From: Hyperoplus lanceolatus
Lineage: Eukaryota > Chordata > Actinopteri > Uranoscopiformes > Ammodytidae
DNA length: 64,000 nucleotides
Assembly: GCA_026929865.2 (NCBI GenBank)
Contig: CM049402.1
Coordinates: 6,691,001-6,755,000, forward strand
Reading direction: 5' to 3'
The notes beneath the pieces were generated by a model that was given only the letters and a program-made list of their open reading frames with translations, had not been told where the DNA came from and did not search any database. Of this stretch, positions 18,411 through 64,000 are shown one piece after another. The translations under genes and the position numbers were made by a program. Each line of letters begins with the position of its first letter. The first letter of the stretch is position 1.

Positions 18411-18700
18411 GTGATGGGGTGAGGTTGTGCGCTCGGTCAAAGCCATGGATCTCAGCTTCAGGCAGCAGATCTGCTCCATCCTCAGTGTCACCACTTTCCC
18501 AGATTGACACATGGCCAGTCCTCCACCTGTTCTCCTGGGATCTAACCATTATCCGCCAGCAATAAGAGCATTCAGCGTGTGGCATCAACTATTGTGTCAC
18601 CAAACTCTCTGATTGGCTGAGACTGTGGGAAACCCCAGCCAAACCAAGAACCACACATTCATATGGAGATGTGGGACTACATAAAGGAGGGATGAAGCCA
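18411..18700 (+). promoter_or_regulatory. Proximal promoter of the her gene
   Basis: Elements in order: an E-box CACGTG at 18414-18419, an inverted CCAAT box (ATTGG, within 18611-18620), a perfect CSL/RBPJ site TGTGGGAA at 18624-18631 placed about 120 bp before the ATG, and a weak TATA-like ACATAAAG around 18679-18686. HES5/her4-class genes are direct Notch targets, and a CSL site beside a CCAAT box near the TATA region is the expected arrangement. The block is partly preserved as an orphan copy at 15650-15870, where the CSL site is lost. The transcription start is inferred to lie around 18700-18720. Confidence 0.65.
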
Positions 18701-18752
18701 GAAGAGATCAGATTCTCCCTACAAGAGACCCCTGCAGCACCGAGATTCAGAT

Positions 18753-19348
18753 ATGGCACCTACAATCACTGCAGCAATGACAAATTCTCAGGAGCATCTG
18801 ACTCTGACCCACAAGGTAAATACAAAATTCAGGAAGCCTTAATCCTTTATAAAACGTTGTCCTGTTTCAATAAGAACATTAGACTACTTGGAAAAAACAA
18901 CATTTTCTTTTTCTTTCTGCAGCTCAGAAAGCCTCTGGTGGAGAAGTTACGCAGAGAGCGAATCAACAGCAGCATTGAGCAGCTCAAGTCTCTCCTTGGT
19001 CCAGAGTTCCTCAAACAGCAGCCAGACTCCAAGTTGGAGAAAGCAGACATCCTGGAGAAGACAGTTTGTGTCCTGAGACGACTGCAGCTGCAGCAACACC
19101 AAGCTGTGGACTCAGCAGCTGTCCACCAGGGTTACTCCAGGTGTGTCCAGGAGGTCAAACACTTCATGTCCAAGGAGCAAGTGAAGACACAGTCCCATAA
19201 AGGCATGCTGAACCACTTCGACAAGCTGCAGTCTTCCTGTGATAAAGACCTGGGAGAGGTCGACTTCCCTCTTCTGAGCTCCACAGTCCAGACAGGCATC
19301 ACCAAAGACAAGAGTCTATTCAACAGCGCCCTCTGGAGGCCATGGTAG
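18753..19348 (+). CDS. Hairy/E(spl)-related bHLH-WRPW repressor, HES5/her4-like
   Basis: Two exons, 18753-18815 and 18923-19348, joined in phase 0 by a 107-bp GT-AG intron with a pyrimidine-rich acceptor. They give a 162-residue protein. Exon 1 encodes a 21-residue N-terminus ending THK. Exon 2 opens with LRKPLVEKLRRERINSSIEQ, the HES basic region with its diagnostic proline (KPxxEKxRRxRIN) and helix 1. Helix 2 contains KLEKADILEKTV. An Orange-like segment (GYSRCVQEVKHFM) follows, and the protein ends exactly in WRPW, the Groucho/TLE-recruiting tetrapeptide. HES5-class proteins are nuclear Notch effectors that repress proneural genes or act in somitogenesis. The start was chosen because the longer upstream frame lacks the family N-terminus and the splice site fits. 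The exact orthologue (her2, her4, her15 or hes5) is not resolved. Confidence 0.92.
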
Positions 19349-50291: not shown

Positions 50292-50603
50292 CACTGTAAA
50301 AAAAAAATCGTATTTTTTACAGGGAATCGCTGACAGCTGTGGTTACCAGAGAATTTCTGTAAAAAATACAGCGGCACAGTAGATAACTTAACCAACGAAA
50401 TATGTAAATTGATTTACAGTGAATTAAATCATGGCAGAATCACATTAAAAAACTGTTAATTCTACAAAAATGTTTTTTTAATTTCACATTACAGTGTTGT
50501 ATATAAAAAGACTATTTCCTGTATTTTTTACATGTAATAATTGCTTATGCATCAATAAATGGTAAATTTAACAGGGAAATATCATACAAAAAACACATTT
50601 TAA

Positions 50604-52089
50604 AGGCCCTGGCAACCCAAATCCACTAAATCCTTGTAACTATGTTATTTGGGGGGTAAAATCAGTGCTAATATGTATATGAAAGGTTTTAGGAATAGCT
50701 GCCAACCCCCCGCAAACATACTGTCATGTCAGTTGGTCGAGCATTTGAAAAATCCTGATTCGAATGTTGCCTCAGTTTAGAGCGAGCTATATCTTGGGAC
50801 GTCACGCGAAGGATCTCTGTTCTAAAATGCATTGAGACGGCCATTTGAAAATTTCTGATTCGAACTTTGGCTTACGTCAATATCTTGGGACGTCACACGT
50901 TCTAAAAAACAAATATATACAATATCTCTGGAGCCGCGCAAGAGATACTGTCTCTTTGAGCCTACACTCACAGCCCCGTCTGAGCGAAGCAGCGCGCACC
51001 CCGGTGAAACACTGTGATGGTAACGTTCACAGTGACACCTCGCCGAGCCGCCGTGCAGAAAAAGCCCAATACGGCATGTGTCACTGCTGCATGTAACAAT
51101 ATTGCATTGGTGATGCATTTTTTTTTTTAATCAATGTAGCGAGTTATTATTGAAGTGCAGGCAGAGTTTTTTTTTGTCAGCACTCCCTTCTGAGAATATG
51201 TTTCTGCGGCTGCCTGTAGCGTAGGCTACTTCAACAGCGGGTCTCCACACTGTTGATCGTCTGGACAACGTTAGCCTGCTTGCTTAGGATCCAACTGGCC
51301 GGCTGGTTTGAACTCATTTGATTGTCTTATTTTATATTTTACTCCTTGTGCTCTTAATTCAAACCGCATATCGCATCAGCTCACGTGATGAGAAACATAA
51401 TCAGACTCCGTTTTCTCTCTCTCTCTTTCTCTCTCTCTCTATTATTCCCACTCCTATCCTCAAAAACATTTAAAAATGCATATGTCTAAAATAGATAGCA
51501 GATTTTTTTGCAAGTTAAATGGGAAATAAACTAATAAGATATAACAATAAATATGAGACAGAGATATTTTTTATATATTTTCATTGTGACACTGACACCT
51601 GTTTCAATTAAATAGGTTGCGGTTGTAGTGGGAATACATATCCTACAACTAATTGCAAACCTATATAGGCCTAATAATAAGTTACTTTCTGCAAGTGATG
51701 TTGAGCTTGCGCTCTCAGCTGTGCCAAAGCATTCACCGTTGCTAAGGAAACCAGCTACCGTCGCAGCCCGTGCAGCAGTGTGAACTGCCAGTCAGGCTCG
51801 TTGTGAGCATGTGCAGCATTTTCAAGTTTGCATCTCGTTGTGTGGTGAATCTTTTGTCTGAACTGGGTTTAACCTGCTCAGCACCGTGAGTGAGAGAACG
51901 TTCCCCTACAGAACGTTGTTGGCCACGCCCACACCACCCTGCAAAATGTTCTAGACAGCAAAAAAGCAGTTTTTAGACTAAATTTTATAATATTTATGAA
52001 AATACATTTTTAATTGGATGACTGTAAACAGCTTATAGAGAAACCCAACATTAATGTCATATATTTATGTCTGTGGGTTGCCAGAGCCT
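50604..52089. mobile_element. TTAA-flanked element with AGGCCCTGGCAACCC termini
   Basis: The left end is AGGCCCTGGCAACCCAAA and the right end (reverse complement) AGGCTCTGGCAACCCACAG. TTAA flanks lie at 50600-50603 and 52090-52093. EnSpm-like AT-rich sequence on both sides appears to join if it is removed. 1486 bp, GC-richer in the middle (50860-51290), without a transposase. Confidence 0.7.
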
Positions 52090-52430
52090 TTAACTGTTGA
52101 AACAGCAGTAAAACTTTGCATTTTAAATGGTACTGTTCTGTATATTATACATAAAATCTATTTATAATATGCTGTATTTTTATGTTTTAATAATCAAGTT
52201 TTAATGTAAAATGTACTAATAAACCTGTAAAATTATTACTAATACTCCTACAGCAAAACATGCAAAAATACATTTTGAGAAAAGACAAGAGAGGAAAATA
52301 TCACTTTTGGGAAATTTAACAGCCATCGGCAATAAACAATTGGATGCAATTTTTTCCAACATATACAAAATGGAAACAAGCCTGTGTCAGATAAAAACAC
52401 ACTGGGACTGTGAGTGCTTGTCTGTGTGTG

Positions 52431-52475
52431 TGAGTGAGTGAGTGAGTGAGTGAGTGAGTGAGTGAGTGAGTGAGT
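52431..52475. repeat. (TGAG)n microsatellite
   Basis: About eleven TGAG units in tandem. Confidence 0.9.
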
Positions 52476-52851
52476 ACATTAACTTGAGATAGCTACATCA
52501 TTTATATTTCGGAATCGTCCCGCGCAACACTATACAATAAGCACCCTTCTGTATAGGATGTCACCACGTCCGTGCCCGTGGGACATAGAACACATAGGGG
52601 GAAAACCACCTGTAAGGAAACAAACCTAAACAAGCCGTCTAGAAACACAGCAGTAAGACAGTTGTTCACTGTAAAAAAAAAAAAAACCTGGAACATAACT
52701 ACAAAGCAATAACATAATGAAACAGGCGGGTGGCGGACCCTATACCAGGAAAAGTTACACAGTGTGCCTTAATTACCATAATACACATTGTGGATTAACA
52801 AAGCGAAAACTAAAAGTACCTCTTCTCAAACAAACAGTCAGAGTCCACATA

Positions 52852-53468
52852 TAGGCCTTTCACACCGCCGCAAAATTGGCGCTAGTTCTGGGCTAGTTCG
52901 GAGCTAGAGACAGTGTTTTGGTTTCACACCGCCAGAGAGCCTGCTCCGGGCTGTACAAACCGGTTCAACTCAAACACCAGGATTGAGCAGGGTTTGAGAT
53001 AAGAACTGCTTGCGCCAGCGGCTGGGGGAGGGATTATCCTGACTAACCAGACCAACTCAAACCTCATGCCCGCCATATTTAAAAACACCGCTACTACGAG
53101 ACGTAAACATAACATAATTACCGAACGTAGCGATCAAATTGACCGGCGAGAATACGCTGTATGGGTCCTGTTTGGTTAGGAAAGCAAAGCGAGAGCCAAC
53201 ACGTGTAAAAATAAGACGTATTTGCCGCTGTTGTTGTGCTTAAAGGTAGCAGTAGCTTTAGCGTTAGCCACAAGAGCAGCGGCGTCGGGCGACGTACACA
53301 CACGTTTACAGTGACGTCATGACGTTGCTCTCTTGCCGGCTCTATGGCTGTCTCCGGTCGATGTGAAACCAACCGGTTCATAACTGGGATAAGGCTGTAA
53401 CCAGTTTTGAACTGACCCCAGCACCAGCCTGGAACTGGCTCATGGTTCTTTTTGGTGTGAAAGGCCTA
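52852..53468. mobile_element. MITE with TAGGCCTTTCACACC termini
   Basis: Termini TAGGCCTTTCACACC and (reverse complement) TTAGGCCTTTCACACC. The flanks contain AGAGTCCACAT (52840-52850) and AGAGTCCATAT (53471-53481), a long near-duplication of about 11 bp that is unusual for hAT or Harbinger and closer to MuDR-like behaviour. The right flank touches the stop codon of the SAMD3-like gene (53482-53484). Confidence 0.65.
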
Positions 53469-53747
53469 ATAGAGTCCATATTTAGGCTTGACGCCACTCG
53501 TGATCGGAGAGATCCTGTATCAGGGTGAGGACTCGAGGGTTCAGGTTGAGACGACGCTTGTTGTTTTTACTCTCTACTTTGGTTCCTTTTTCTGGGTTTA
53601 TCGAGAAGAAACACCTGTAAAAAAAAGCATATTAAAGCATTTTAATTGATAATTTAAAAAAAAATAAGTACAAGAAGAACCAAGACCAAGACTCAGGCCA
53701 CACCTATAGAGCCAAGGCCGAGGCAGACCCAGTTAGTTGAAGTCGGG

Positions 53748-54036
53748 ATTAAAAGGAGAATGCATGCCGTTTTTAACCCATAGCCCTGTTACCGAGTGCT
53801 GTCGGTAGGAAAAATAACGAGAACATTTGGCACAATATTGACCGAGTATCAGAACGGCAGCTAAAGCGAACCAAAAGTAAAACTTAAGGGAGCTTGGCCC
53901 AATAGGTTTGCTTCAGCTGTCGTTCTGATACTCGGTAAATATTGAGTCAAATTTTCACGTTATTTTTCATACTGCAGCACCTGTAACCTCAAATCAACAG
54001 GGCTATTGATTACAAACGGCCGGCATTCTCCTTTAA
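53748..54036. mobile_element. Palindromic MITE in intron 3 of the SAMD3-like gene
   Basis: Both ends read AAGGAGAATGC / AGGAGAATGCCGGCCGTTT in inverted orientation, each next to TTAA. The inside is near self-complementary: CCGAGTATCAGAACG at about 53851 pairs with CGTTCTGATACTCGG at about 53921. It would fold as one long hairpin. About 290 bp, intronic, same strand-neutral type as other TTAA-flanked elements here. Confidence 0.7.
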
Positions 54037-55328
54037 GACTGGAACCTCTGAGCCAGACTCCAGGTCCCAGTCTCAGGTCTGAGAAATTAGTAAACCATGT
54101 TTACTCACCTTTGAAGGAACTCCAGAGTTGAAGCCAGCTCAGATGGATAATGGATGTTGAAAATGTAGTAGCTCCCGAACATGAGGCACAATGCAGAAAT
54201 GAAGGAGGAGATGTTTGTGTTGACAAGGTTCCGATCCAGACTCAGCATGTACCTTGTTGAGGAATAGCAGGACTGTCCTATGAACAAATTATTGAACAGG
54301 TTTTATTAATAAGCACTGCACTTACATGATAATTTATAAACGGTTTAATTAAAAAAAGATATGAAACAGACTTACCACAGACAATGACAGTGGGTGTCAG
54401 AGGCACTTGCTCCAGTTGGACCTCTTCTGCCAGACATGTATCTTCTACATGGAAGAACATGGACTCCTCCTTCTCATCAAAGTAGTCGAGCAGAAGCAGG
54501 AGCATCTCTTTCACGTCATCTGAACAGCCACTCTGCTGTCCCCGCATTCTCTGAAGCCTTGCATAAGTCTGAAGAAACTTCTTGCTCTTGCTGACACAAA
54601 CTGTGGCCATGTAGTCGAGAAGCCTTTTTCCCTTCAAATCCAAATTTCGTGTGAATGTCTCTTTGAGGTCATTCCCTGTCAGTTCCTTGAAGTGACATGC
54701 CAAGGTCATCAAAGCAAAACGGCCACTCCTCTCTAAGGCATTTGATACTTTTTCCAGGTTGACATGTTGTCGTTGTGTGTAAAAAGTGGACTTCATTAAA
54801 CATTTGACCTCCTCTGGATTGGCATCAGAGTGTTGGAACATCACCTTGAGTTTTTCCATCTTTTGCTTCTGGCTCTCTTGAGTTTTTTCACGGGGCAGAA
54901 ATTCTACATTCCATTTAATGCATCCATACGTGTCCTGCATTGCTGCTCTCTCTTCCAATGGGATCTCGTCTGTGTGGTCAGAGTCATCAGTCTGATGTTT
55001 TCTTTTTCTTATTTTGGGTGTTGAAGTGCGCCTCACATTTTCGATTCTATTTTGCAACTGTTTGACAAGGGAAAGGTAGCCTGCTCCAACAATATCGCCC
55101 TCTATTACATCTTGCAGAGAATGTGGATATTTTGCAACCATTTTTTTTGCAACGTCAGTTGAATGCTTTTTGCCTACATGAGGGCATTTTTCCATCATCT
55201 CAGTCACAACAATCCGGACCATTTGCCTCCTCAGTTTTGGGCCTGGCCTTTTTCCCTTCTCAAGAGAATGCATCACTTCTTCAGGAAACTTACTCCATGG
55301 AATTTCAAAGTTGTCGTCCCACTGTGTG

Positions 55329-55660
55329 CAGACCCGTCGCCAGACCTCAGTCTTAAGGGGGGCATATGAAATGCATAGGGGGGCACAATTATTATTAGCC
55401 TACAATATGTACATTTATAATAGTCCTATACTCTATTCGCGCAGCACGTAATCATCACGTTAAACTAACCAACAGCGGTAGTCTATAGCCTACAACATCA
55501 GTCCTCATAATTTAAAGCTATACATTACATAGAAGCAATGTCATGAATATCCATAAAACACTTGACTATTCAACATATTAGATGTAGCCTAACACCAGAC
55601 GCATATCTCAAACATTGCATTTTAAAGCAGTCAACAGAGGGATATGATATGCATTGCCAT

Positions 55661-55733
<73 letters not shown>

Positions 55734-56655
55734 TAGCCTACTTTGAGTGGAGGCAGGGCTGTGCTCTCTCCAGTCCCTTCTATCAGTACAGCGGGAGGCG
55801 GCGTTTCTCCGAGCTCAACCTCCTCATCAACATATCTCGGCCTCCGGGTTCAGAGCAGCCAGTGCGCCAATGAGCTCGCTGCTGCGCTCTCCAAAACGCG
55901 CATCCATCTCTCCTTGCACAGCATCGCTAACATTGTAAAATACTCTTGAACTCAGTCTTTTCGTCTATGTCACTTTGTGACGGACCAACTGTTTCCTCAA
56001 CTGCAAATCCGCGGAGGTTCTTGTAAATTGTGCGTCTTCTCGGCCGGTCTCCGGCACAGCCTCGCCCTCGATGGCCGTGGCTGGAGGAGCGCAGAGTTCC
56101 CACAGTGCAAAACTGTGGCTTCACGCAATCAGAAGTGTCACCGCGCTGAACAAGTCCATAATTTCGGCTTGTAGTAGTCTGTTGTGTGGCTCGAAAAGTG
56201 ACAACAGTTTGACGATCCGATTTGGCAGAGGAGACTGTTGTTGGTGGGCTTTTCAACCATTACCGAATATCGATTATGATGAACTAGAAATGAAATAGTA
56301 AGCCGGTGAAAACTCATCCAGCTTCACTCTCAAAGTGCGTGGTAACTGTTGAGCGGCTACATTGAAGTAGTTAGTAGCCTTACTTTCTTTTCAGTAAGGC
56401 CGTGATAGGCTGTTGCAGTGTAGATAGACTCCCGTCAATCAAACAAAATCACACCAATGTTTATTTATATTTTAAATGTTTTGATGATAAAGAATGCAAC
56501 ATTAGTATTTATCAACACAAAATTAGCTACTATGATAGTATAAAATAAAAATTAAAGTATTTTTTTTTTGAGAGATCTGTGCCCCAAGTGGGGGGGCACA
56601 AGCATTTCTGGGGGCGGGCCCGGCCCCCTATGGCCCGCCCATAGCGACGGGTATG
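55329..56655. mobile_element. hAT-like insertion in the SAMD3-like coding exon
   Basis: Starts CAGACCCGTCGCCAGACC and ends so that its reverse complement is CATACCCGTCGCTATGGGC. It is flanked by an exact 8-bp duplication ACTGTGTG (55321-55328 and 56656-56663). Removal of the element with one duplication restores a continuous reading frame (T-Q-W-D-D junction). It carries a (CA)n at 55666-55730 and GC-rich sequence but no recognisable transposase. Confidence 0.85.
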
Positions 56656-57877
56656 ACTGTGTGTCAAGTCCTCGGCTGCTGTTGGAGGTTGACGATGAAC
56701 TTCCGGGTGAAATAGAGAGATATGACAGCAATTGGGTAGGTGAGGCTTCCTCAGATGATAGTGAGCTGTTCTCGGGAGTCTGGTCTGTAAATGACCAAAA
56801 AAATATATTATGACACACTGTACAATATTACAAAATGTCCATGTATGTTTTTGTGTTTGATTAGTTGTGGTGTTGTGTTTTTAATTACATTTCCGTTTCC
56901 AAGCAGAAAGAAGCTTTCTGGCTTGTACAGGTCTTAACGCTGTTATCAAATCAGCCTCCGTTACAAAGCGTAGATCATCAGCCATCTCCACACCAAGGGA
57001 CTGCAAGTGCTCTTCCAGGATGGTTTTGTTTACTGCTGGAAGTTCTGGTAGGAATTCAGTGATGGCGACATCTAGGAAGGTTCTCTCCGCGTCACACATA
57101 TTTGCACTGAAGAACAAATGCCACCTTCAAAACAGAACAGAAAAGAAGTTCATTACACTTAAAGGTGAAGTAAGCAATTTATTGATGTTAATATAAGTGT
57201 TAAATCGCTCTTTATTCATACAGTGATCACTAGTAGGGGTGTAAATCGCTGCTTTCATCACGATACGATATTACATCGATTCATTGGACAACGATACGAT
57301 ATTCTCCGATATTTAAAATCTGCTGCGATACGATTTCGATTCGATACGATTCAGGGGCCTGCGATCGATATAAGACGATATGCCCATTTAACACAAGTAC
57401 AACCTGTTACATTCCCATCAACTCACAGAAAACAACTTCATTATAATTTCATCATTTTATTTCTGTGCTCTTCCAGATATTTGAAAAAAAATACAAAGAA
57501 TAAAGTTCCACTCTGCATTAAAGTGCAAAAACATTTTTGTGGCTGAACTTAAAGAGCCTGTGATGATCTTGAATTTTTACTTTATCAAAAAAAAATTAAA
57601 GTGCAGATACATTGATTTGAGCCCACTGCTTTAAAAACTAAGATCTTACAGAACAAAGCAAATGTATTTGTAACCAAATTAATTTCACCATATTATTTCT
57701 GACTCTTCCAGATATTTGAAAAAATACAAAGAATAAAGTTCCACTTTGCATTAAAGTGCAAAAACATTTTTATCTGAACTTAAAGAGCCGTGAAATATGT
57801 CCCTTTCAGAACAAAGCAAATGTATTTGTAACCATTTCACATTGTCAGTAAAAGTGGATTTCTCTTCTCTACAAGAG

Positions 57878-60521
<2,644 letters not shown>

Positions 60522-61472
60522 CCCGCCGACACTACTGCTTGCTGTGGCTGCTTTAACCGTTTAACAGTTGAACGAATAAGCGCTCGGAACGGCTTCGCGC
60601 GGGCGGAAATAGTGTCAGAAGCACCGGCGCAAGGAGATTGTCAAAATAAAAGCATATAATACATCGATTTGTATCGATTTTTGGGCGTTGTATCGATTCA
60701 GTTGTATCGTCCCATCAATCGATGGATCGATCTATATCGATGGATCGTTACACCCCTAATCACTAGTATAGTGATTAGGGGTTTGAATGAATCTTCTTAA
60801 GAAAAAAAAAATAATGTGTTCTAACTGTAGTAGCTGTGTATCTGTGTATCTGAATCTTATGGCAGTGGGGGCGGGACTCGATAAGCCTTTGGCTTCTCCT
60901 GCTACCCTTCGGACGATAACACAAAGTAATATGTATGAATATGCAATGTGAAAATTATGTATTATGTGTAATTGTCCGGAAGAATAATAATAAATAAATA
61001 AATAAATAAGTGTGCGCGTTTCATACAGCCGATCTCTCAGTCACTCGCTCTGCATGTAATTGGCAAATAAACTTTTCGGGGATCCCACAACTGATAACCA
61101 ATCAGAAGAGAGAATGCAACAAACCGGCACCCGTCTCACTGCCGGTGCACGCGCAGAGCAACAGAGGGGTGAATGTTTATGCGCCTACAATGGCGGAGTA
61201 GGTAAAAATCCTTCCCAATGCCTGTATTGAGGTTTTTTATTATGTTTTATCACACTTATGGATCTGAGATGATGCTAGATAACTCGCTGCTTGAAGACCG
61301 CAGTGCATTAATGTGGTGACGAGGGAGGGGACGACTAACTGCAGTAATTGACAGGAAGTTAGCTAAACTGACTATTCTGCTTACTGAACCTTTAACAGGG
61401 CAGGGACATGCATCAGCTAACACTTATATTAATGTCAAACTATTTACAATGTAAGTCCGCTTTAATTGGACT

Positions 61473-64000
61473 TTATTTTGCCACAATACTGTGTTTTAGT
61501 GGAATGACTTGGTATCTATCCAGAATGTATGATACCAAAGGATAGAAATCGGGCAGGTCATTAATGTTGATACACTGTAACCCAAGACTGTCCTTTGTCA
61601 CAGAATACATATGGTATTCTGAGAGGAAGATGCCTTTGTGGATATCCATCAAAACATACACAGATGTGTCATTTTGAATCAAGATGAGTAGAAGTTCACC
61701 AAAGTCCATATACTCATCATTTCTGTACACAAGAAACTGTCCTTTTTTATATGCAGTGCCCTTATACTGAATGTCTGTGGTAACTTTGGTATCGTTTTCC
61801 GAAAAGGCTAACTCCCTGACTGCATGTTTGATAGTGTCACTGTAGAGGTTGGGATAAAACGCACAGCTCTCCTTCACTTGCAGTAGTGTACTGCATTCTT
61901 GCCCAGCTAAAAGATATGCCTGATACATCTGATGACGCTCTGACAAAGTTTGACAAATGTTTTTGAAATTTTTCAAGTGTCTGGCACATCTTTTGAAATA
62001 ACTATGTTTACTTTCAAACCTAAGTGTCCATAACCTCTAGCCTGGCTCCGCCCGCCTACTTCCGGACAAATTTAATTTTCCCTTCAGTAGTCAGTCTGGG
62101 TGTACAGCGCATTTCCCAGATTCTCCGGAGAATCTACAGCCGTCCAATCAGCGAACAGAGCGAGTGGCTGAGAACGATGACGTCGAAGTCGCGCTCCAGT
62201 TTCAGTTGAATGCTGCGTTCCTTTATACTCGGAAGAAGGAGATTTCCGACTTGGTAGTTCCGAGTTCCGACCTGTCTGTGTTCCAGTGCATCTGCTTGCG
62301 AGATTATGGATGCCTTAAACCTTTCTCGTCCAAATAACTAAACGTTAAGCTCTAACAAGTTACTGTTGCCAGGTACCGGTAGATTCATAGACTACAATAT
62401 GTAGTGAAGTCGGAAATGTCCGAGTTCCCTGTCCAAGTGGAAGGCACCATCAAAAGCCGGCTCATGACACACGTGACGACCAAACGTGATGCGATTGGTT
62501 GGTTAATCCAGAGTGGCACTGGGCAGATCCAATAGTTTTAAACTTCAACAGACACCCGCCTCCAAGTGAGTGAACGTATGCCAATTACAGCACTTCCAGA
62601 CCTTCTGTACAAATGAAATGAAGTACGATGGTCTGGTTGGACCAGGCTACATAACATCATCAATGGACCAAATTTCAACAACAGTGCTGAATAATGGCAC
62701 AAATAGTGGTGCTTGGGTTTTAGTTGAATTTCAGGAAACAACATCTTTCTCATCTCCAAATATTCTTGGATCAAAATGTCAACATATGCTATCTGCGACA
62801 AGGAAATGTTCTGAGCACAAATAAGATCTGCAATGTCTTTTAACTGGAGAGCTAACTGCCATACTGCATCCTGATGGTTTTGCACTTTGTCACCAATCAA
62901 AACTGGTAGCAATCTCAAAAGGTTCCAGTTTTGAACGGCTTGCCCTGATAACTTTGCTCCATCAGGTTCGACAGCACATGGCTTTGTGAGCGCTTCAGAT
63001 CCTTTATACTTAAACTGCTTGATGCGCCTGTTTAAGAGGGAGTATGTGAACCATTTTTTCTTTTTTATAATGTTCTTCAGGTACAGTGCTAGATCATATG
63101 ACAAGACTCCTTCAAAGAGGTCATGACCTAAACAAGGAGGGAGACCAGGCTGAGAGACGTGAAAAGACTCAAGGGTATTAAAGACCAAGTTTACCTTTAT
63201 TCCTCTGACACGTTGGATGTCTTCAGCCTGGAGATCCGCCACAGCCGCGTCATATGTCTCTGGGGTGCGTGGAGGACCACAGGCATTCGGATGCATGAAA
63301 CTCAGTTCTTGTGATTTCACAGTATCTGCAAAAATATTGAGAGGTGGTGAAGTTTTCTGTAAACCCACCTACACAATGAGAACCCAAGTTATCCCCAGAA
63401 ATGCAGTAAAGACCCGCTTTTACTGTTTCCCCATCTACATTTATTCCATCTGTCTCCAAGGATTTCAGATCTGCTAACAACTCTGAGAAAACTTTGGCTA
63501 TTCCAAAACGCTTAAATTTAATTCTCAACACATAACAAGACCAAAAACATATTATCAGTATTGGAACGCAAATGGATGGGTAAATTTGCTAATGAAAGAT
63601 AGACTGCAAGCACTTCGTTTGTCTTTTTACCAGAACCCAGGGGATTCACAACTTCAAATGAATCTTGGTACAAAATCAGTTTGAGGCTTTCCGGGTTTTC
63701 ATTAAAGAACTGGTGGCATTTGAAATTTTGTCCATCATATAAATCAGTAAAAACCTCTACATCAGGATATCCAAACTGTTGTGCCTGTGTATTCCTCCAT
63801 AAATCGGACTGTAGAAAGCTCTTCAGAGTTTCTGCAACTGGTATGTAGTATGCACATTTTTCTGTCATGTTTTCATCCATTTCCAATGCTACTTTTCGGG
63901 GTTCTGTGTATTTAATTTTTTTTGTGAATGTCTGATTTCTGATGTATGTTGTTCTTAATTGTCCCTGATGACAGGAAGAGAACAAATCTGACTCTTTAAT
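61473..64000 (-). pseudogene. TNP2/CMC-EnSpm-like transposase, 5' end beyond the window
   Basis: The frame enters from the window end and reads PVAETLKSFLQSDLWRN, then SFEVVNPLGSGKKTNEVLA, VYLSLANLPIHLRSNTDNM, GDNLGSHCVGGFTENF with FCRYCEI, LPPCLGHDLFEGVLSYD, KPKHHYLCHYSALL and, after the inserted MITE, LWTLRFESKHSYFKRCARHL. It ends YQVIPLKHSIVAK. This order resembles animal TNP2-domain transposases of CACTA elements; I rate the superfamily as probable, not proven. Lesions are one-base frameshifts near 63520 and near 63290, and the hAT-like MITE at 62038-62650, whose removal leaves the frame intact. An AATAAA overlaps the TAA stop. Confidence 0.6.
62038..62650. mobile_element. hAT-like MITE inside the transposase ORF
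   Basis: Same family as 3189-3563 (TAGCCTGGCTCC start, CCAGGCTAC end). Its 8-bp flanks are ATAACCTC (62030-62037) and ATAACATC (62651-62658), one mismatch. Relative to the short copy it contains a nested insert of about 230 bp at 62219-62452 with GATGSTGC-TTCC-like ends (GAATGCTGCGTTCC, and reverse complement GATGGTGCCTTCC). Confidence 0.85.

Follow-up and report, generated by a model that had tools for sequence, protein, structure and literature searches.

The 64,000-nt stretch of the Hyperoplus lanceolatus genome analyzed here (the window, C8:6691001-6755000) raises the question of why a gene with a predicted SAM domain, termed the SAM-type gene in the following, lies directly behind a TNP2-like transposase gene on the minus strand. 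The results indicate, with a probability of about 0.9, that the SAM-type gene is located inside a CACTA/EnSpm-class transposon, between the transposase gene and the 3' end, and that its product is likely a second transposition protein comparable to TNPA of maize. The two parts of this answer differ in strength: that the gene belongs to the element at this locus is close to certain, and a TNPA-like role of the protein in transposition is favored with modest confidence. The following features carry the argument (window coordinates, all on the minus strand):

50292..64000, window part of the CACTA/EnSpm-class element, defined by copy comparison, ends and target duplication
50292..50603, 3' end of the element with the CACTGTAAAA terminus and subterminal TGTAAA/TTTACA repeats (5 full-length genome copies)
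53482..53614, SAM-type exon 4 with stop
54109..54277, SAM-type exon 3
54376..55328, second part of SAM-type exon 2, in which a short stretch has shifted frame compared with relatives
56656..56784, first part of SAM-type exon 2, which is split by an insert
56889..57099, SAM-type exon 1 with ATG at 57099 and the predicted SAM domain
acceptor-like tract TTTTCTGTTCTGTTTTGAAG, ending 25 nt upstream of the ATG at 57099
61473..64000, window part of the TNP2-like transposase (locus L009), with matches continuing to about 64735
63189..63203, splice-donor-like site GGAATAAAG/GTAAAC in the transposase frame, the junction used by the spliced relative P0003

To delimit the element, the window copy was compared with copies on C2, C5 and C20. 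Similarity in this alignment starts at CACTGTAAAAAATGG and ends at TTTACAGTG, and CACTGTAAAAAA at 50292 was identified as an element end because the four copies cease to match there. The second end is located outside the window at 65717. All three copies with both ends are flanked by 2-bp target duplications (C2 TT/TT, C5 CA/CA, window CA/CA on the plus strand, that is TG/TG in gene orientation), and the window element therefore spans 50292-65717 (15,426 bp, the last 1.7 kb past the window end). In the C2 and C5 copies the termini are CACTG...CAGTG, with the CAC start and GTG end of the CMC clade, and the window 5' end begins with CAGTG instead of CACTG. Both ends and the duplications enclose both genes in C2, C5 and the window, the C5 copy having undergone an internal deletion that leaves the N-terminal part of the transposase ahead of the SAM-type gene; the C20 copy lacks the 5' part. 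The differing flanks and duplications of copies at several sites point to past movement, as far as sequence can tell. An earlier note, made from the letters of the window, had described a TNP2-like minus-strand frame ending at 61473, a four-exon gene at 57099-53482 and a repeat-bearing terminus at 50292, and all three were recovered, the exons with GT-AG junctions. Its expectation that CACTG ends bracket both genes held in three copies, apart from the altered window 5' end and the partial C5 transposase, and its predicted 3-bp duplication proved to be 2 bp in each of them. Plant-type EnSpm elements have a 3-bp target duplication. The 2 bp found here lie inside the range of 2 to 5 bp given for CMCT, and differ in 3/3 copies from the 3 bp of EnSpm in the narrow sense, as described for fungal families in the available text of PMC12730594.

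The distribution of the ends was investigated next in the 806-Mb genome of the window species, the one genome covered by all genome searches. For the 5' end, a 32-base pattern (<=2 mismatches) occurred at three places, all at these units and each ahead of a transposase. Seven matches were obtained with the 309-base 3' end, two partial and five full-length (C8, C20, C5, C2 and C9:2.06M), and all five full-length ends lie behind a SAM-type exon in the correct orientation. TGTAAA reached 6.0 and 6.3 per kb at the two ends of the C2 copy vs 1.2-1.4 (1 and 5 of 200 shuffles were as high), so that subterminal repeats are present at both ends. A second CACTGTAAAAAA at 52667 was rejected as a true end; the window and C2 copies are similar across it. 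A small miniature inverted-repeat element of 50292-50421 was rejected as well, because the flanking bases differ and the copies remain similar beyond 50421.

Window copies of both genes are decayed; the transposase frame is interrupted by one insert, by in-frame stops and, near 63518, by a frameshift. Its pieces match 839 proteins (best 120 listed), often about 880 residues long. The transposase combines C2H2 fingers with a DDE domain of predicted RAG1/Transib-like fold, and a BAH-like domain is present. In 48/48 aligned relatives the DDE triad was invariant, as were C(2)C and H(3-4)H between its second D and the E, and these motifs are present in the window copy too, across more than one frame; the same combination defines the CMC clade (available text of PMC12730594). 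Pfam Transposase_21 (PF02992) matched four of six transposase-bearing proteins at E values of 3e-5 to 0.09, without reaching the cut-off in any of them.

The SAM-type exons match 265 proteins at E <= 0.001. Among the best 120, which were listed, are many teleosts and one frog; their names are mostly 'uncharacterized' or 'hypothetical' and in some cases 'SAM domain-containing', and none of the names visible in abbreviated form says SAMD3. Foldseek with a predicted SAM structure model gave no match at E <= 0.001, viral contigs yielded no confirmed relative, and sequence matches to MutY and forkhead proteins were weak and not trusted. The SAM-type proteins P0005 (elephantfish) and P0006 (shad) are 88-90% identical to the wrasse protein P0001, and the zebrafish protein 69%; this patchy likeness hints at possible horizontal transfer. 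In P0046, P0052, P0060 and P0268, SAM-type or middle-domain regions are joined to other N-terminal exons that by eye resemble leaders of host coiled-coil or zinc-finger genes, and these are possible host-transposon fusions or model artefacts.

To analyze if the two genes travel together, their genomic positions were compared. SAM-type queries (P0001, P0244) identified 17 loci with middle-domain matches, and TNP2-type queries (P0121, P0237, P0269) identified 48 merged loci, a lower bound since 51-52 of 149-167 candidates were scored. Of the 17 SAM-type loci, twelve have a TNP2 locus at most 10 kb upstream on the same strand, and no other arrangement of the two was found; the count becomes 12 of about 27 if some ten excluded places with short C-terminal-exon matches only are included (among them C9:2.06M, C8:5.02M, C3:23.2M, C2:38.2M, C19:25.4M, C14:6.62M, C5:23.93M, C1:27.4M and C9:16.3M). 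A further search used a SAMD3-like bait peptide, taken to represent a fish protein named 'sterile alpha motif domain-containing protein 3-like', and gave 48 matches at 46 loci, 18 of which follow a TNP2 locus within 10 kb on the same strand, with 0 otherwise (18 observed vs 0.014 expected). Chance predicts about 0.02 for such pairing counts with either family. Order and strand were the same in 30/30 neighboring pairs, so that the co-occurrence within about 10 kb suggested by the earlier note was observed in this genome.

Several lines of evidence suggest that both genes are parts of one unit. Without an insert at 57159-61466, the transposase stop and the SAM-type ATG of the window are separated by about 70 nt (59 + 7 + TTAA). 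An acceptor-like tract ends 1-25 nt ahead of the SAM-type ATG in nine of ten loci, the tract on C14 being weaker, vs 18% of ATGs in the same sequence with such a tract within 40 nt; the comparison was devised after the sequences had been inspected, and the ten loci represent about six lineages. The contig of P0003 (2,210 bases, with a frame of 571 residues) presumably derives from RNA because all four SAM-type exons are joined in it. The P0003 frame opens with transposase residues up to '...RGIK' and resumes from the acceptor, and both its donor and its acceptor are present in the window and in C2. Gene models from Triplophysa, Misgurnus, Brachyhypopomus, Hoplias, Scortum and others likewise join transposase pieces to SAM, in this order in 14/14 cases (12 of the 120 listed SAM hits, P0003 included, and two of the 120 listed TNP2 hits). 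One of them, P0078 of Misgurnus, joins the zinc-finger part directly to SAM; P0078 and P0208 carry different LOC numbers and may be isoforms because the XP numbers in their titles are consecutive.

The proteins also diverge together. Distance matrices of transposase and SAM-type protein correlated with r = 0.96 over 13 units (0 of 20,000 permutations as high), a value that holds with the Triplophysa transposase P0176 paired to its own SAM part. Because many of the 13 units are close relatives, the correlation was repeated with one unit per lineage, giving r = 0.85 (8 units, 2 of 20,000 as high); units of the window genome gave r = 0.79 (n=6, 56 of 20,000 as high). The trend thus persists and is weaker than 0.96 implies.

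On these grounds we infer that a single pre-mRNA would yield the transposase when left unspliced across the transposase frame, and the SAM-type protein when spliced to the acceptor just ahead of its start. The middle domain of the latter would be a putative binding domain for the subterminal TGTAAA repeats, and its N-terminal domain may oligomerise, pairing the ends for the transposase.

The strongest alternative is that the SAM-type gene is passenger cargo, serving escape from silencing or control of the element promoter and dispensable for cutting and joining. It has precedents, since other EnSpm elements carry non-transposase genes such as the fungal TET/JBP dioxygenases (available text of PMC12730594) and maize TNPA also affects promoter methylation (PMC1636069, in the part available). 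Nevertheless, diverged subfamilies retain the pair, the two proteins diverge in parallel, and in most loci inspected the second gene begins shortly after the transposase stop and is preceded by an acceptor-like tract; conservation of the pair, close spacing and acceptor tract suggest a core rather than an optional gene, and we regard cargo as unlikely, though it deserves serious consideration. A main product consisting of a transposase-SAM fusion, with separate SAM-type protein as a minor species, is improbable: the models P0176 and P0208 do fuse most of the transposase to SAM, yet the fusion models omit the transposase C-terminus and stop, their junctions vary, and no transposase piece is present in 108 of the 120 SAM hits listed. 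That an ordinary host gene lies beside a CACTA element by chance is suggested by five of 17 SAM-type loci for which no TNP2 was found, including a stop-free gene at C12:27.31M with no TNP2 in the 10 kb upstream, but can be dismissed with near certainty, as both genes lie between the ends in three copies, full-length 3' ends and 5' pattern matches were found only at these units and pairing is far above chance; for the window locus itself, chance neighborhood was rejected by copy comparison, the bracketing of both genes and the distribution of 3' ends.

A number of observations nonetheless weigh against a two-protein transposon. Apart from the five SAM-type loci, no TNP2 was found within 10 kb of 28/46 SAMD3-like loci, and no partner was found for 18/48 TNP2 loci. 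The lack of a transposase piece in 108 of the 120 listed SAM hits counts here as well, and the fused gene models could partly be annotation artefacts. No Pfam SAM model reached its cut-off on the SAM-type protein, and Transposase_21 never did on the transposase (best 23.8 bits vs 28.6), with none detected in the window pieces or in the protein of a related C9 unit described below. The ends of the more distant subfamilies were not found when CACT/AGTG pairs flanked by a duplication were sought. This search returned the known ends as its single hit in the C2 control, eight hits on C22 (best CACTGTTAGAAATGTT/CACTGTAAGAAAAATC with TA/TA), four on C14 (the best, CACTCACCGGCCACTT with TA, pairs perfectly over 16 bases and possibly represents the ends of an unrelated repeat), one weak hit on C9 and none at C8:3.10M and on C17. 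Finally, the link to the SAMD3-like family rests on a bait with a presumed name and on distant matches.

Among the unpaired SAM-type loci, comparison of the 10 kb upstream of C12:27.31M, C14:3.27M and C7:1.83M with the 120 listed TNP2 hits gave only zinc-finger cross-matches or SAM parts of fused models; for C14:1.60M and C15:27.05M, comparison with the locus lists alone gave no TNP2 partner. Conversely, C1:4.90M is a truncated TNP2 locus with no SAM in the next 4 kb. The C12 gene (C12:27308404-27312096), without stops in its matched exons, is 63% identical to P0244 of Notolabrus, has relatives in cypriniform fishes and is a candidate domesticated copy. Eight SAMD3-like copies form two sets of four with identical scores and no TNP2 found nearby (C8:34.27M, C9:33.29M, C19:28.70M, C24:13.36M; C1:38.46M, C8:26.15M, C10:16.98M, C10:29.85M); they are perhaps recently moved units of another kind.

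The C9 unit (C9:22.47M, L042) may connect both families. Here, a stop-free transposase frame that aligns with the window family across 860 columns is followed by 72 nt with TTCTCCCTCTTTCTTAG and then by a SAMD3-like frame. By hhalign, the second protein gave E 3.8e-4 with the window family (probability 36%), E 8e-4 with the second SAM subfamily (24%) and E 0.25 with an unrelated control, the first two alignments being in about the same register; a downstream exon matched the conserved C-terminus at E 8e-5, and the middle match reached 1.5e-5 (9.7-kb search). Fish SAMD3-like genes show distant matches to the SAM-type genes in the middle region and a C-terminal exon, and lie behind TNP2 at 18/46 loci. 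They differ by large divergence and, on C9, by an N-terminus that appears PB1-like by eye and has no Pfam match. As a tentative extension, less probable than its opposite, the SAMD3-like family as a whole may be the TNPA-equivalent of animal CACTA transposons and an ancient partner of the transposase, with middle and C-terminal domains kept and the N-terminal oligomerisation module swapped (SAM vs PB1-like). The earlier note had proposed SAMD3-like genes as the accessory open reading frame and a whole host family as cargo. The former is supported insofar as a SAM-type gene lies inside the element and a part of the SAMD3-like loci follow TNP2, but no match name visible says SAMD3 and the name of the bait is presumed. 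The latter agrees with the 12/17 and 18/46 paired loci, but as a statement on the whole family it is unsupported because of the 5/17 and 28/46 loci for which no TNP2 neighbor was found. In print, 'SAMD3-like' names fish gene models (available text of PMC6771007 and PMC7037442), and a study of carp-goldfish hybrids lists two of them among its tabulated results (PMC6771007).

A two-protein arrangement is of a known kind. Maize En/Spm has subterminal repeats. It also has CACT termini, and a TNP2-type and a second gene form one unit with splicing across both (PMC1636069, in the part available). The fish element shares these termini, repeats and the gene pair, but its second protein is SAM/SAMD3-like, its target duplication is 2 bp and the transposase of its relatives is one long open frame ahead of the second gene; the likeness to maize TNPA rests on gene arrangement and proposed role, not on TNPA sequence. 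SmTRC1 of Schistosoma mansoni, also CACTA-type, encodes alternatively spliced short proteins beside Transposase_21, for which its authors, in the available text, found no similarity to other animal or fungal elements of the type (PMC1636069); the fish protein, in contrast, occurs across many teleosts and one frog among the listed hits. From the RAG transposon (RAG1-like/RAG2-like) and Transib the fish element differs in its partner protein, its C2H2 fingers and its BAH-like domain. In the literature searched, with Repbase and most subscription papers outside it, no link of SAMD3 or a SAM domain to CACTA/EnSpm was found. The element would offer vertebrate CACTA transposons a conserved second protein, whereas the SmTRC1 authors found none common to animals. 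If correct, many fish gene models would become transposon genes, affecting gene counts, claims of family expansion and expression studies. If SAMD3-like proteins are indeed TNPA-equivalents, vertebrate SAMD3 would have arisen from a transposon by domestication and would parallel RAG2 as a former partner protein. Two questions become testable, namely whether animal CACTA transposition needs two proteins and whether SAMD3 was domesticated.

The window element further carries six nested inserts:

50604..52092, no strand assigned, TTAA-flanked insert in the 3' subterminal region, missing from C2
52858..53468, no strand assigned, hAT-like non-autonomous insert, missing from C2
55329..56655, no strand assigned, 1.3-kb insert in SAM-type exon 2 with a duplication of about 8 bp, missing from C2
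57159..61466, no strand assigned, older insert flanked by TTAA, located between the transposase and SAM-type genes; C2 has its ends too
57234..60758, minus strand, ZBED-type hAT transposon nested in the preceding insert, with a perfect 8-bp duplication ATCACTAG
62038..62649, no strand assigned, insert in the transposase frame with an 8-9 bp duplication, missing from C2

The C2 copy lacks 57236-61008, which corresponds to the hAT element and about 240 bases more. Neither the ZBED-type hAT transposon nor the TTAA-flanked insert between the two genes had been mentioned in the earlier note. Elsewhere in the window, an open frame at 18566-19348 on the plus strand contains, by eye, a her/HES-like basic helix-loop-helix stretch.

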